From: a virus
DNA: 61,509 nucleotides
IMG/VR virus record: IMGVR_UViG_3300050011_000416
Coordinates: 1-61,509 of that record
Reading direction: 5' to 3' (one strand)
In this document: in pieces, positions 4,592-53,916 of the stretch
Position numbering within the stretch: position 1 is the stretch's first letter
How the letters are laid out: every line of letters starts with the position of its first letter
Translations under genes and position numbers: made by a program
The notes under the pieces: generated by a model
The model's input: only the letters and a program-made list of their open reading frames with translations
Told to the model about the DNA's origin: nothing
Databases searched by the model: none

Positions 4592-6322
4592 ATGAGCACT
4601 TTCATTCACGGAATAGCTTCCGCACAAAGCCTAGACAAATCTGGTGAAATAGTAGACATTAAGGGCTTAGATATCACATCTTTAGCTCGCACAGGAACTA
4701 TTACATGGGAACACAACGCAGGAAAAGACGCTAACGGCAACGCTATTTCGATTAACCTTCCTGCCCAAGTTGTTGGCAAAATCCTAAAAGCTAAGAAAAT
4801 TTTTGATAAAAAAGACTGCGCTGATGACAACGAACTTCTTTTTTGGAATAAGGCCAAAGTTCCTTTCGTGTACATAGCCGCCGAACTTTTGGACGATTAT
4901 TGCGATAGCGCCAGAGAATGCGCTGGCAAATTCAAATATAGCAGCGCCAATCCAAGTCAAGAAGCGATTTTAGGATTTTCCGTAGAAGGATCGGAAATAC
5001 CCGGAACCAGAAAGGGCATGCTGATCACCAGATCCATTGGTCGCAAGGTCACTTTAACGGTCGCACCGTGTAATTCTTTATGCACTGCCGAAATTCTAGA
5101 AAATCAAAAACCTCAAATTAAAGATGATTTTGAAGAGCTATTTAAAAATACCGAAGAAGCTATTACTCTCTTCAAATCTGGCGAAGGTACCAAGATCTAC
5201 GAAACCTACTTAGCCAAAAAAGAGCATGAACCTAAACCTCCTGCTTTTGACCATAAAAAAGCTGCCGAACATCATAGAAAATCTGCTGTGAGCGCCGAAG
5301 ATGCTAAAACTGCCGATCACCATATCGAGAAAATGAAGTTTCACAATAATGCCGCCTTGTCTGAAGTTAAGAAAAGTGAAAAAGGTTTGTGTGAGCTTCA
5401 TAAGGCCAGAGTGGATGAAGGTAAGACTGACCAGGAAAAGATGGCTACTAGAGGAAAACGCAATTTTAGACAAAAAGTGAATGAAGGTCCGATGAATCAG
5501 GGTACTCCCATCGGGGCTCCGAAAAAGATCGTAGGAGTGCCTATCCACAATGAAAAGGGTGTCCATAGGATGGCATTAGGCCAACCTTCTGAAACCAGAT
5601 CTCAAGGCATTAGTAGCATGGGAAGAGCCGTTAGACAAGGAAAGCTATCAAATGCAAAGGATGCTGTTGCCGTAGCACGTTCCGGTATCAACAAAATTAA
5701 GACCAATCTTCCCAAATCCGAGCCAGATGGAAATCTCAAAAAAGCCCTCACTGCTGGTGGTATGAATGCCTCTCCTTCTACATTGGTTAATGGATCTGCC
5801 TACCAAACCGAAAGTCTTGGATCAAAGCAAGCAACCACTGGCGCTGAAAACAATGCCTTTCAGGGAACTAAAAAGAAGGATTGGAATAAACGTGCCAGAG
5901 ATGATTACCAAAACTGGCCACATCGTGAAAAGTTTGAGAAGTTTATGCAAGCAAGAATGCCCCACCTTGCTATGGGCGAAATAAAAGCTATTGGTCGTAC
6001 CTTGGCCCTAAAGAAGTCTATTGATTTTGAAAAATCCCTAGATAGTTTGGTTTCTTTCACTAAATCTGAACTTGACGAAAAGTCACTTAAAGATATTCAA
6101 AAAGAAACCGCTGAAACTTGGGCTAAACGTGCAGAAGAAGCTTACAAAAAGGCTATAGAAGAAAAGTCAGTTAAATGGCTTATGGATGCTACAGAATATG
6201 GACATGAAGCTATTGAGCATTCCAGTCTTTCTGAAGACTTATCTACATTTGAAAAGATAAGGGCGAAACTCATACCTCTCCATAAAAAAGCAATTAAGCT
6301 ATTGATTTCTAACGATAAATAA
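4592..6322 (+). CDS. Prohead maturation protease with C-terminal scaffold region
   Basis: A 576-residue protein. Residues 1-165 match prohead serine proteases of the herpesvirus-assemblin/T4 gp21 class: SGEIVDIKGLD, the catalytic His in WEHN (H41) and the catalytic Ser in LGFSVEG (S130). The remaining 400 residues are charged and low-complexity, as in protease-scaffold fusions. Residues 384-410 (KKALTAGGMNASPSTLVNGS onward) closely copy residues 9-35 of the major capsid protein, suggesting a shared interaction or cleavage site. It acts inside the prohead on scaffold and capsid N-termini. It is on the strand opposite the capsid gene, with an HNH gene inserted between them. Confidence 0.8.
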   Translation: MSTFIHGIASAQSLDKSGEIVDIKGLDITSLARTGTITWEHNAGKDANGNAISINLPAQVVGKILKAKKIFDKKDCADDNELLFWNKAKVPFVYIAAELLDDYCDSARECAGKFKYSSANPSQEAILGFSVEGSEIPGTRKGMLITRSIGRKVTLTVAPCNSLCTAEILENQKPQIKDDFEELFKNTEEAITLFKSGEGTKIYETYLAKKEHEPKPPAFDHKKAAEHHRKSAVSAEDAKTADHHIEKMKFHNNAALSEVKKSEKGLCELHKARVDEGKTDQEKMATRGKRNFRQKVNEGPMNQGTPIGAPKKIVGVPIHNEKGVHRMALGQPSETRSQGISSMGRAVRQGKLSNAKDAVAVARSGINKIKTNLPKSEPDGNLKKALTAGGMNASPSTLVNGSAYQTESLGSKQATTGAENNAFQGTKKKDWNKRARDDYQNWPHREKFEKFMQARMPHLAMGEIKAIGRTLALKKSIDFEKSLDSLVSFTKSELDEKSLKDIQKETAETWAKRAEEAYKKAIEEKSVKWLMDATEYGHEAIEHSSLSEDLSTFEKIRAKLIPLHKKAIKLLISNDK

Positions 6323-6960: not shown

Positions 6961-6974
6961 CAATCTTAGTGTAG
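6961..6974 (+). promoter_or_regulatory. CAATCTTA-type promoter candidate (tRNA)
   Basis: CAATCTTA-GTG-TAG overlaps the first base pair of the tRNA at 6973. It is the weakest match at the 3' end (TAG in place of TAT), but it is placed like the others directly before a gene. Confidence 0.35.
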
Positions 6975-7047
6975 CAGAGTAGTGGAAGGATTACCATTTT
7001 GGCCTCATAAGCCAAAGCACCGAGTTTGAGTCTCGGCTCTGCATCCA
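6973..7047 (+). tRNA. tRNA with CAU anticodon (Met or Ile2)
   Basis: The cloverleaf is complete. The acceptor is 6973-6979 with 7037-7043 (six pairs and an A-A mismatch at position 1-72). The D-arm is GTGG/CCAT with GG in the loop. The anticodon arm is TTGGC/GCCAA with loop CTCATAA. The T-arm is CCGAG-TTTGAGT-CTCGG, and CCA is encoded. The anticodon CAU allows elongator Met or, after lysidine modification, Ile. The three G-C pairs of initiator anticodon stems are absent, so it is probably not fMet despite the unpaired first position. It may supplement host decoding or replace a tRNA cut by host defence. Confidence 0.85.
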
Positions 7048-7089: not shown

Positions 7090-7266
7090 TTAAGATGGCC
7101 GCGTGGAAAGCGGTGGATACCGTGCCGACTTCGTGGGCGGCATACTGGACCCACTGGAGACATGCACTCGACCGCCCGTAGGTCGGCAGACTTGAGGAAT
7201 GTTCCTTGGGTCACGGGCTCTAAAGATTTATTGCCGAAGTGGGAGTAGCGTCCCACCCATCATTAA
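7090..7266 (+). ncRNA. Structured RNA family, copy A
   Basis: Closing stem P0 pairs GATGG (7094-7098) with CCATC (7257-7261) and extends through TTAA/TTAA with one bulged A. Two bases (CC) separate it from P1, GCGTG (7101-7105) with CATGC (7161-7165), flanked inside by GA (7106-7107) and GA (7159-7160). P2 is GTGG/CCAC (7113-7116, 7151-7154). A hairpin CGACC/GGTCG (7169-7185) has loop GCCCGT complementary to ACGGGC at 7213-7218, a possible pseudoknot, and TCGGCA (7183-7188) can pair with TGCCGA (7232-7237). The final hairpin GTGGGA-GTAGCG-TCCCAC (7239-7256) abuts P0. The ribosome-binding site TTAGGAG starts right after the element, so it may also act as a leader of the next gene. Confidence 0.75.
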
Positions 7267-8223: not shown

Positions 8224-8455
8224 TTTCTCATGAGGCGTGGAAGCAAGTAGGCGCTAGAAACCCTGGTACGCTGGGGACAATCAGGTAAGCTGGCAAAGGT
8301 GACGATGCCGACCTATTTTAGAGACACGCAACGACCCAAAAAGATCATTCGTAATAGATGTAGAGTTTACGTACCTTTAGGGGGCACACTGGAACTACCT
8401 GGTCAGGACTGGCCATACTTGAGCCGGAGTAGAAGTAGCGATCTACCATGAGAAA
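8224..8455 (+). ncRNA. Structured RNA family, copy B
   Basis: Closing stem P0 is nine pairs, TTTCTCATG (8224-8232) with CATGAGAAA (8447-8455). After two bases (AG) comes P1, GCGTG (8235-8239) with CACGC (8325-8329), with GA (8240-8241) facing GA (8323-8324). P2 is AAGTAGG (8245-8251) with CCTATTT (8312-8318). The terminal hairpin GTAGA/TCTAC (8429-8446) has GTAGCG in its loop and abuts P0. The paired sequences differ from copies A and C while the pairing is kept. This is the longest copy (232 nt). It has no long open frame and its own promoter. Confidence 0.8.
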
Positions 8456-8460
8456 ATAGG

Positions 8461-8531
8461 CAGTGGGTGCTGTGAGACGTGCAGACTAAATGACTCCTCG
8501 TACGGGATAAATCGGAATAGTCAGCCCACTG
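8461..8531 (+). ncRNA. Second folded element after RNA copy B
   Basis: CAGTGGG (8461-8467) pairs with CCCACTG (8525-8531), with GACTA (8484-8488) and TAGTC (8518-8522) as an inner stem. TTTTAATTTT follows, so it could be a terminator-like end or a regulatory leader. The strings GGGTGCT and AATCGGA also occur in the matching position after RNA copy C. Confidence 0.45.
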
Positions 8532-10156: not shown

Positions 10157-11656
10157 ATGGAAAACTTTAGCGCAATGTTGTTATGTGATTTTTATAAATT
10201 GTCTCATCGTTTGATGTATCCAGGAAAGACGGAGGTTGTCTATTCTACTTGGACTCATCGAGCCAGTCGAATTAAAGAAGTTGATCACGTCGTAGTAGCT
10301 GGTAATCAAAGGTTTATTAAGAAATTCTTAATTGATTTCTTTTACGAAAACTTCTTTTGTAGGAATAAACAAAATGTGGTGGAAGAATATGCCCGTATCG
10401 TCAAGTATACGCTTGGCGTCGCCAATCCAGACACCTCGCATATCGAGGAACTCCACGATCTTGGATATCTTCCTTTGCTCATCAAAGCGGTTCCAGAAGG
10501 AACTCTTTTACCACTCCGAGTCCCTTCGATGACCATTCAGAACACAGATAAAAGGTTTTTCTGGTTAACCAACTATATTGAGACCCTTGCTTCTTGTGAA
10601 CTCTGGCCCACCTATACTGCGGCTACTATCGCCCATGAGTATCGTAAGTTACTAGATGCTGGAGCTATGAAGACTGTAGGTAATACAGATTTTGTGCCTT
10701 TTCAAGGGCATGATTTCAGCATGAGGGGTATGATGGGCATTGAAGCCGCCTCAAATACTGGATTAGGCCATCTTCTTTCTTTTGTTGGTACTGACACTAT
10801 TCCTGCAATTCTAGCTGCAGAATACTACTATAAGGCCAATGTGGAGAAGGAATTGGTCGGTACTTCCATTCCAGCCACCGAGCATAGCATTCAATGTGCT
10901 TATGGGGACGATCTGGCCTATCTTAAGCGCATGATTACCGAAGTGCATCCAACCGGATTTGTATCTGTTGTTTCTGATGGGTATGACTTCTGGGACGTTA
11001 TTGGTCGAGTTCTTCCCCTTCTTAAGGAAGATATTATGGCTCGTAAGGGTGGTCCTGTAGGAGATCGAGTCGTTATTAGACCCGATTCTGGAGACCCAGT
11101 AAAAATCGTTTGTGGTGATCCTGATGCCCCTAAGGGAAGTTTGGAACACAAAGGGGCAGTCGAAGCTCTCTGGAACATCTTTGGTGGTACGTACACCTTT
11201 ATGGACAATCCCACAAAAACTCAGTATAAGGTTCTAGATTCTCATATTGGCCTAATTTATGGGGACGCTATTACCCTTCGTAGGGCTGAAGAGATTATCA
11301 ATCGGTTGGCCGAAAAGGGATTTGCCTCTATCAATGTCGTATTTGGTATTGGATCTTATACTTACCAATACAATACCCGTGATACATTCGGATTTGCTTT
11401 GAAATCAACTGCATGTGTCATTGATGGTGTAGAAAAGCAAATCTTCAAGGATCCTAAGACAGATGATGGGATCAAGAAGTCACAAAAAGGTAAGGTTCAC
11501 GTCTATAGAGCTAATGGCAAGATCACATTCTCAGATGGGCATAGCCTAGCTTCTGAATTATCTGTGGACTTGTTGCAACCCATCTTCAAAGATGGTAAGA
11601 TGCTTAATGTGCAAACCTTTCAACAAATCAGAACCAGATTATTGGAGAGTAAGTGA
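10157..11656 (+). CDS. nadV: NAMPT-like nicotinamide (ADP-)ribosyltransferase (NadV or Namat)
   Basis: A 499-residue nicotinamide phosphoribosyltransferase family enzyme of full length. Recognisable motifs are SMRGMMG and VVIRPDSGDPVKIV, the latter carrying the catalytic and phosphate-contact residues. Classical NAMPT makes NMN from nicotinamide and PRPP; the NARP1 enzyme Namat joins nicotinamide to ADP-ribose pyrophosphate to give NAD+ directly. It follows the PRPP-synthetase-like gene by 11 bases with TAGGAG upstream, and its TGA overlaps the GTG of the macro gene. Either way it restores NAD+ during infection, for example against NAD-depleting defences. Confidence 0.85.
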   Translation: MENFSAMLLCDFYKLSHRLMYPGKTEVVYSTWTHRASRIKEVDHVVVAGNQRFIKKFLIDFFYENFFCRNKQNVVEEYARIVKYTLGVANPDTSHIEELHDLGYLPLLIKAVPEGTLLPLRVPSMTIQNTDKRFFWLTNYIETLASCELWPTYTAATIAHEYRKLLDAGAMKTVGNTDFVPFQGHDFSMRGMMGIEAASNTGLGHLLSFVGTDTIPAILAAEYYYKANVEKELVGTSIPATEHSIQCAYGDDLAYLKRMITEVHPTGFVSVVSDGYDFWDVIGRVLPLLKEDIMARKGGPVGDRVVIRPDSGDPVKIVCGDPDAPKGSLEHKGAVEALWNIFGGTYTFMDNPTKTQYKVLDSHIGLIYGDAITLRRAEEIINRLAEKGFASINVVFGIGSYTYQYNTRDTFGFALKSTACVIDGVEKQIFKDPKTDDGIKKSQKGKVHVYRANGKITFSDGHSLASELSVDLLQPIFKDGKMLNVQTFQQIRTRLLESK

Positions 11657-52728: not shown

Positions 52729-53631
52729 ATGGCAAAACAAGAAGTATCCCTAATTGAAAAAATTCGTAATCGTTTAAATGAGAATAGTGGTAAGGAATTG
52801 GTTAAAACGTTTGGTCCAGATGACAACCTTCTGCAAGTTAGGTCTTGGATTCTCCTTAAACCCTTCTTTAAGCAAGCTACGGGTGGGGATGGCTTTCCAT
52901 GCGGACACATAACTCAAGTCATAGGTAAGCCAGACAGCGGAAAGACAACTTTGGTTATGGAAGGAATCGTTTCTTGCCAAAAAGCAAGTGGAGTAGTTTT
53001 TCTGATTGATTCAGAGCATAAATTCTCCATGCCAAGGCTTACTCTGATGGGTGGAAATCCTAAAGAAGTCTTGGTCACTCCTACAAATACCCTAGAAGAG
53101 GCTTGGGACGCTATCGAAAAGATCCTTGCTGAGGCCCAAACCCTACGTGAAGAGGGTTTTACGGGGCCAATAATGATCGTTTGGGACTCAGTTGCAGCTT
53201 CAGTTCCAGAAGCAATGATGGAAGGAGAGGCCGGAGACGCCCATTTTGCAGTAGAAGCAAAGCTTAATAACAAGAACGTTCGTAGGCTTCGTCAATCCAT
53301 TGATAAATCTGAAGTTGCTTGCGTATTCATTAATCATTATTATATGACTAATCCCAAGACTAAGTATGAGCAACCAGAGCTTATCATTAAGGGCGGAGAG
53401 GAACTTTCTTTCTTTTCAACCTTGATTATTCGTACCAAACAAGGTGCCAAGATCATGCGAACGGTTCTAGGCGAAGAACAACAAATTGGTAGGACTACTA
53501 GATTTTTTACCCATAAGGGTCATTTCCATGGTAGGACGATTACCAAGGATGTCTCTGTAGTGGATCTGGGCATTTTAGAGACACCTGAAGAGTTACTAGA
53601 ATACAAGAAATCTCTCAGAGGAGAGCTTTAA
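52729..53631 (+). CDS. RecA/UvsX recombinase
   Basis: A 300-residue recombinase with Walker A GKPDSGKTT (66-74), IMIVWDSVAASVPEAMM as Walker B region and a DNA-binding loop near 195-215. Strand exchange links it to the SbcCD-like, UvsW-like and RuvC-like proteins here, indicating recombination-dependent replication. It is followed after four bases by structured RNA copy C. Confidence 0.85.
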   Translation: MAKQEVSLIEKIRNRLNENSGKELVKTFGPDDNLLQVRSWILLKPFFKQATGGDGFPCGHITQVIGKPDSGKTTLVMEGIVSCQKASGVVFLIDSEHKFSMPRLTLMGGNPKEVLVTPTNTLEEAWDAIEKILAEAQTLREEGFTGPIMIVWDSVAASVPEAMMEGEAGDAHFAVEAKLNNKNVRRLRQSIDKSEVACVFINHYYMTNPKTKYEQPELIIKGGEELSFFSTLIIRTKQGAKIMRTVLGEEQQIGRTTRFFTHKGHFHGRTITKDVSVVDLGILETPEELLEYKKSLRGEL

Positions 53632-53635
53632 AAGT

Positions 53636-53838
53636 TTGGCGGCGGCGTGGAAAGCTGTGGGAGTAGCTCAGAGGAGAAAGCGGGGTCGAGAGATCTGCTA
53701 TGTGGGTTCGAGTCCCACCACCACTGGAGACACGCATCGGAAGGTGGAATGAGTAGGTACTGCAACGTCGGGCGTAAGTCAGGCGTTAATGCGTCATCTT
53801 TATAGTCCTACTAGTAGGAGTAGCGTCCTACCCGCCAA
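53636..53838 (+). ncRNA. Structured RNA family, copy C, with tRNA-like domain
   Basis: Closing stem P0 is TTGGCGG (53636-53642) with CCGCCAA (53832-53838). Two bases (CG) precede P1, GCGTG (53645-53649) with CACGC (53731-53735), with GA (53650-53651) facing GA (53729-53730). P2 is GTGG/CCAC (53657-53660, 53721-53724). Inside P2 lies TAGCTCAG, a D-arm-like loop with GG, an arm GGTC-GAGA-GATC (53684-53695) where an anticodon arm would be, and a classic T-arm GTGGG-TTCGAGT-CCCAC (53702-53718). The terminal hairpin GTAGGA-GTAGCG-TCCTAC (53814-53831) abuts P0. No promoter is visible; it is probably cut from the recA message. Confidence 0.8.
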
Positions 53839-53842
53839 TAAA

Positions 53843-53916
53843 TTTAACGGGTGCTCATCCTAGGTATTTGGGCCACAGTCAAAAGAATCGGATGAAGTGT
53901 CTGATTGCCCGTTAAA
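53843..53916 (+). ncRNA. Second folded element after RNA copy C
   Basis: TTTAACGGG (53843-53851) pairs with CCCGTTAAA (53908-53916), and TCATCC (53855-53860) with GGATGA (53890-53895). GGGTGCT and AATCGGA recur at the same places after RNA copy B. The ribosome-binding site of the next gene follows directly, so it may control that gene. Confidence 0.5.

Follow-up and report, generated by a model that had tools for sequence, protein, structure and literature searches.

Is a phage RNA that carries a textbook T-arm, and a tetraloop-capped stem where a tRNA has its anticodon arm, a tRNA, a part taken from one or a chance resemblance, and what could such a domain do? The question is raised by copy C, an RNA of 203 nucleotides (nt) at positions 53636-53838 of the IMG/VR virus record IMGVR_UViG_3300050011_000416; the window analysed here is the whole stretch from position 1 to 61,509 of that record, and copy C with its parts lies on the plus strand, as do two further copies, A and B. 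An earlier note on this DNA had proposed a tRNA-like domain without an anticodon inside the larger RNA and had suggested, as its possible purpose, processing by RNase P, binding of elongation factor or synthetase, or a decoy for a host tRNA nuclease. Here, we find that copy C is a full member of a phage RNA family, with the helices P1, P2, P3 and P5 as in 60 unique members, and that its P3 arm looks like a tRNA body minus the anticodon and the amino-acid end, that is, a borrowed structural part and not a working tRNA. The explanation we favour, with moderate confidence, is that an autonomous phage RNA has more than once taken up a tRNA body as its P3 arm, a rigid part that can be exchanged and whose role would be architectural.

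The tRNA-like arm of copy C

The tRNA-like P3 domain corresponds to tRNA positions 1-72 without the anticodon loop and spans 53657-53725; the interval proposed earlier (53652-53728) covers the domain but misses its exact limits. The features named with it, a GG-containing D-like loop, the T-arm GTGGG-TTCGAGT-CCCAC and a GAGA-capped stem, are all present in the sequence. The domain opens with tRNA positions 1-7 (GUGGGAG, 53657-53663), of which GUGG (53657-53660) pairs with CCAC (53721-53724) as the base of P3 and a remnant of the acceptor. U8 and A9 (53664-53665) are followed by a D-arm-like GCU-CAGAGGAGAA-AGC (53666-53681) with GG at 53673-53674, recognised from its sequence, the stem not being favoured energetically. 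Resolved further as GCU-C-AGAGGAGA-A-AGC, this D-arm has A14, G15, G18, G19 and A21, and G26 comes after it. The anticodon arm is replaced by the stem GGGUC-GAGA-GAUCU (53683-53696), capped by a GNRA tetraloop and with inner pairs at a probability of >0.9. Then come a variable loop of 5 nt (GCUAU), the T-arm GUGGG-UUCGAGU-CCCAC (53702-53718; pairing probability ~0.8 in the family fold) and tRNA positions 66-72 (CACCACU, 53719-53725). All segment lengths are canonical for a tRNA, with the 4-nt loop as the sole exception. Judged as a functional tRNA, the domain has a D-arm with GG and a T-arm with TTCRA at tRNA spacing, but it lacks both the 7-nt anticodon loop (GAGA tetraloop) and a 7-bp acceptor with a free 3′ end for CCA, its 4-bp P3 running into P2.

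Could a hairpin merely happen to resemble a T-arm? ARAGORN calls no tRNA and no transfer-messenger RNA (tmRNA) on the natural copy C sequence, with relaxed thresholds that sequence is not separable from shuffles, and the Rfam models recognise only the T-arm (cmscan, tRNA/tmRNA clan, 10.2 bits). The calls change once the tetraloop is exchanged. When GAGA is swapped in silico for a 7-nt loop, ARAGORN calls a tRNA at default settings, which it does for 0 of 5,000 dinucleotide shuffles given the same replacement. Brute-force loop replacement in the P3 arms of 64 members yields calls for only three, copy C and the members at loci L018 and L138, and for none in six fully shuffled sets that were given the same effort. 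With the canonical segment lengths added, a chance resemblance is hardly credible, and the claim of a tRNA-like domain without an anticodon, its acceptor continued into P3/P2 of a larger RNA, holds.

Definition and distribution of the RNA family

Family members were collected by pattern scans of IMG/VR, followed by a script demanding P5 and P1, which gave 60 unique members of 133-339 nt. Their consensus is P1 (usually at least 7 bp, of free sequence)-CGGC-GUGGAAAGC-U-P3-UGGAGACACGC-variable part-hairpin with a GUMGCG loop (P5)-P1′, and the register of P1 (CGGC linker, P5 adjacent) is constant in 50 of the 60. Copy C has each of these elements. The 5′ strand of P1 (UUGGCGG, 53636-53642) forms 7 bp with the 3′ strand (CCGCCAA, 53832-53838), the CGGC linker is present, and P2 pairs GCGUG (53645-53649) with CACGC (53731-53735). 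A purine-rich internal loop, the GAAAGC/GGAGA loop of the family, has GAAAGCU (53650-53656) facing UGGAGA (53725-53730), and the P5 hairpin GUAGGA-GUAGCG-UCCUAC (53814-53831), with a covarying stem and the conserved GUMGCG loop, lies directly 5′ of P1′, as it does family-wide.

Standard pairs make up 96.4% of the pair cells in an alignment of 44 members, compared with 28-52% paired in slid control alignments, and 17 of 21 pairs show two-sided changes. P1 covaries with 99.6% of its cells paired, although P1 and P5 served for selection and their score is thus partly circular. P3 was not used in selection; 97.7% of its cells are paired, and each of its four pairs shows changes. The internal loop is near-invariant in the same alignment, largely because the search pattern imposed it; since GUGGAAAGC and GGAGACA were set by that pattern, their invariance is not evidence.

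The family is found in diverse phages and is widespread. Carriers include the cultured Pseudomonas aeruginosa phages phi297 and AUS531phi and the prophage record vB_PaeS-D14P, and at the P. aeruginosa phage and prophage locus the RNA lies in an operon between a ‘bci’ gene and recombination genes. The exact core is rare in bacterial genomes: a strict scan of genome contigs with a gap of 46-76 nt gave no match, and a short-gap scan gave seven matches of which four looked real, namely L099, L101 and L102 in Paludibacterium purpuratum and L103 in Cerasicoccus frondis. The core pattern was not found in Myxococcus phage Mx1, the nearest relative by DNA polymerase (33% identity). A match in the Variovorax phage VarioGold was rejected, as it lies within a repressor gene and has no core; pattern matches within reading frames without P5 or P1 (for example L007, L011, L012 and L046) were set aside as chance. 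Direct blastn searches of INPHARED with copy C and core segments gave only T-arm matches to ordinary tRNAs or chance matches. Rfam 15 contains no family that matches at gathering threshold in the window or 28 other loci; group I introns, known small ribozymes and RNase P, weighed at the level of motifs only, likewise had no Rfam match. Locus L031 has two tandem copies about 18 nt apart on the minus strand (10988-11192 and 11210-11404, numbered on the reverse complement), the first with a good sigma70-like promoter (TTGCAA-17-TATACT) abutting P1.

tRNA-type arms and exchange of the RNA interior

A strict T-arm occurs in three members collected without bias (copy C, L018 and L028), where shuffles lead one to expect 0.18; L137 and L138 came from a targeted scan and stand outside this statistic. 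In L018 the tRNA is circularly permuted. Its P3 is the anticodon stem (GUUGAG/CUCAAC), and between P3 and a 7-bp acceptor (GCAGGGG/CCCCUGC) capped by UUCG lie the D- and T-arms; with the anticodon loop restored, ARAGORN calls a tRNA at default settings. In L138, on the minus strand, two T-arm modules follow one another within P3, and the first of them has a perfect acceptor-like stem of 8 bp (CAGTGGTG/CACCACTG). At least two other members carry tRNA bodies unrelated to that of copy C, and the recurrent use of such bodies does not depend on their orientation. Other candidates are less complete. L137 has a perfect T-arm, but its D-arm is a minimal GG-containing hairpin only; the tRNA-like arm of L020 is degenerate; the arm of L028 gained no further support; and L078 has a GAAA-capped stem at the place of the anticodon arm and an end-to-end alignment to tRNA-Sec (20.6 bits, E 0.21) that is not significant alone. 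L078 also has, on the minus strand (5719-5937 and 5973-6163, numbered on the reverse complement), two tandem members that share their P1 arms and of which only one has a tRNA-like P3.

The tRNA-type arms share their elbow side and neither the anticodon nor the acceptor. Because the acceptor is buried or capped, with no free 3′ CCA end in copy C and a UUCG-closed acceptor in L018, the suggested binding of a synthetase or EF-Tu as a charged-tRNA mimic is essentially excluded. Loss of the T-loop consensus in homologues, which the earlier note had named as grounds for refutation, applies to the family taken as a whole but not to those members whose tRNA bodies are independent.

The tRNA arm does not characterise the family, because a syntenic orthologue and two further copies in the window do without it. 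The related contigs L002 and L003 encode a recA-like protein 80% identical to that of the window, and the orthologous RNA (L002, 3589-3810) is flanked by the recA-like gene and, downstream, by the same gene as in the window; in both contigs it retains P1, P2 and the sequence of the P5 hairpin and has a different P3 with no TTCRA motif. Copies A (7094-7261) and B (8224-8455) have the family core but no T-loop, and each follows a sigma70-like promoter (TTGCAT-17-CATACT and TTGACT-16-TATAGT, respectively).

Exchange extends to the whole interior of the RNA. In P. aeruginosa phages, flanks that are 94-95% (5′) and 80-86% (3′) identical surround wholly different RNA interiors: relative to phi297, similarity is lost 10-20 nt into the RNA and regained at P5/P1′ (D14H, BR153a and YMC P52/P54). 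D14H retains GUGGAAAGC and the P5 motifs, and the core was not seen in P54 or BR153a. This pattern suggests, from sequence comparison, that the RNA interior behaves like an exchangeable, fast-evolving cassette. At L140 (~5964-6156), compared with L144, L145, L146 and L147, the interior is replaced wholesale and the P1 arms and flanks are conserved.

Such replacement between near-identical phages is what an arms race predicts, and it fits an RNA that serves as a decoy or ligand, through its elbow, for a host tRNA-binding factor (a modification enzyme, a tRNA-acting toxin or nuclease, or the ribosomal L1 stalk), for example in counter-defence. All tRNA-type arms retain the elbow side, and elbow binders are numerous (PMC4810234). 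However, the usual nuclease targets, the anticodon loop and the CCA end, are absent and the majority of members have no tRNA arm, and we regard this explanation as rather unlikely. The narrower proposal of a decoy for a host tRNA nuclease is not supported, the anticodon loop that anticodon nucleases target being gone.

Three further observations concern the copies in the window. A tRNA-Met gene (CAT, 6974-7043) lies immediately 5′ of copy A. About 30 nt of the middle region of copy C, GCAACGTCGGGCGTAAGTCAGGCGTTAATGC (53762-53792), are identical in the RNA of L048 (3886-4084), an apparent case of module sharing between different phage contigs. Directly 3′ of copies B (8461-8531) and C (53843-53916) there is a second closed helix, with the ends CAGTGGGTGCTG...CAGCCCACTG and TTTAACGGGTGCTC...TTGCCCGTTAAA, respectively, and with GGGTGCT and an AATCGGA box in common; it was not seen beside the other family members fetched and possibly represents another RNA family.

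Transcript, role and relation to known systems

In the architectural explanation, copy C would be a compact, apparently stand-alone phage noncoding RNA, closed by P1 and built around the GAAAGC/GGAGA internal loop and the P5 hairpin with its GUMGCG loop. P3 would be an exchangeable peripheral arm of this core, and a tRNA body in that place would provide a rigid L-shaped arm, held by its elbow, that places the conserved core for a partner or keeps it shielded. The elbow would form, and the RNA would be a separate transcript that acts through its core. Signals at the RNA ends of part of the family point to a discrete RNA: TTTT ends P1′ in 26 of 60 members, compared with 3 at control positions, and a sigma70-like promoter above the 95% shuffle level abuts P1 in 13 of 61 (~3 expected), which suggests that the transcript ends are the ends of P1.

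Several observations weigh against this explanation or qualify the tRNA-like claim. The unconstrained minimum free energy fold of the whole RNA disrupts P2 and pairs the T-arm bases elsewhere (-71.0 compared with -68.0 kcal/mol); once P1, P2 and P5 are imposed, as covariation supports, the T-arm reaches a probability of ~0.8 and P3 of ~0.88. The 3-bp D-stem loses in the energy models to an extended GAGA stem, and forcing it as well costs a further ~4 kcal/mol because of this competition; D-arm pairing is therefore the weakest part of the tRNA-like claim. The acceptor of copy C is not 7 bp long, only GUGG/CCAC, slipped by one, being left as P3, and a tRNA body is present in only about 3-6 of some 65 members. 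Finally, no convincing promoter was found for copy C itself. It is intergenic, with a recA/UvsX-like gene (52729-53631) upstream and another gene downstream, and since only 4 nt separate its start from the stop codon of the recA-like gene, it may result from processing or cotranscription.

The position and the lack of a clear promoter of its own would suit a processing signal: RNase P, RNase Z or both would be drawn to the tRNA-like domain and would mature the RNA or split off the recA-like mRNA; both enzymes recognise the elbow and T-arm (PMC4810234). Yet the acceptor is continuous with P3/P2, so that no single-stranded leader or trailer lies beside a 7-bp acceptor, UUCG closes the acceptor of L018, and the orthologue, which occupies the same site, has no T-arm. 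We consider a processing signal improbable, and since the orthologue and most members have no T-loop, RNase P or RNase Z processing is unlikely to be a conserved function of the family.

A cis-acting leader, in which a tRNA-like fold in the 5′ region boosts translation of the downstream gene or switches it, as is reported for the yjdF riboswitch and grafted cis-tRNAs, seems equally improbable. Translation is raised by tRNA-like leaders (PMC9142559), and 25 of 60 members have both a Shine-Dalgarno-like sequence and a start codon no more than 45 nt from P1′. Against this, the genes downstream of family members are diverse and mutually unrelated, the U-tract at the P1′ end suggests termination, and in copy C a second helix and ~95 nt lie between P1′ and the likely ATG (53933).

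The architectural explanation can be taken further, as a tentative proposal that we think possible but doubtful: a fast-evolving family would engage host targets with interchangeable arms, tRNA bodies having been captured several times and in both orientations (acceptor-fused, or circularly permuted and anticodon-fused) and stripped of their decoding and charging parts, so that the elbow alone is displayed, for example to bind and neutralise a host factor that recognises the elbow, and the P1-closed locus would be exchanged in the way of anti-defence or immunity cassettes. The role of the arm is directly testable by comparison, because near-identical phages differ in the interior and a syntenic orthologue does without the arm. 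More generally, this is a widely distributed phage noncoding RNA family with very strong covariation, and its cultured P. aeruginosa carriers open it to experiment; its members offer natural cases of tRNA bodies reused as building blocks, one of them circularly permuted and capped in the manner of an RNA engineer.

The family is apparently undescribed, being absent from Rfam 15 and the searched literature, which is not proof that no earlier description exists. Among known systems, tmRNA (RF00023) resembles copy C in having a tRNA-like fold without a normal anticodon arm in a larger RNA, and the T-arm of copy C aligns to the model; the match is to the T-arm only, however, at 10.2 bits against a gathering threshold of 47, and copy C has no CCA acceptor end. 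As to the tag reading frame and alanine acceptor end of a tmRNA, ARAGORN called no tmRNA and the sequence has no free acceptor end. The yjdF aptamer has a tRNA-homologous L-shaped domain with a D-loop/T-loop elbow that is not aminoacylatable (PMC9142559). In contrast to yjdF, which had no match in the Rfam scans, here a larger RNA carries the tRNA body as an arm that it can do without, and the downstream genes vary. Viral 3′ tRNA-like structures occupy a free 3′ end and can accept an amino acid. Those of turnip yellow mosaic virus and others mimic the tRNA elbow (PMC4810234), whereas here the acceptor is buried or closed by a cap, and a real tRNA gene seems to be the source of the body. GOLLD and ROOL, whose Rfam models had no match at gathering threshold in the scans of the window and 28 other loci, are like this family phage-encoded, structured, of unassigned function and often near tRNA genes (as copy A follows tRNA-Met), and whole phage tRNAs sometimes lie within GOLLD linkers (PMC12286853). 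The present family is much smaller (133-339 nt) and has another conserved core and, in contrast to the tRNAs of GOLLD, its tRNA bodies come without the anticodon or the acceptor end.
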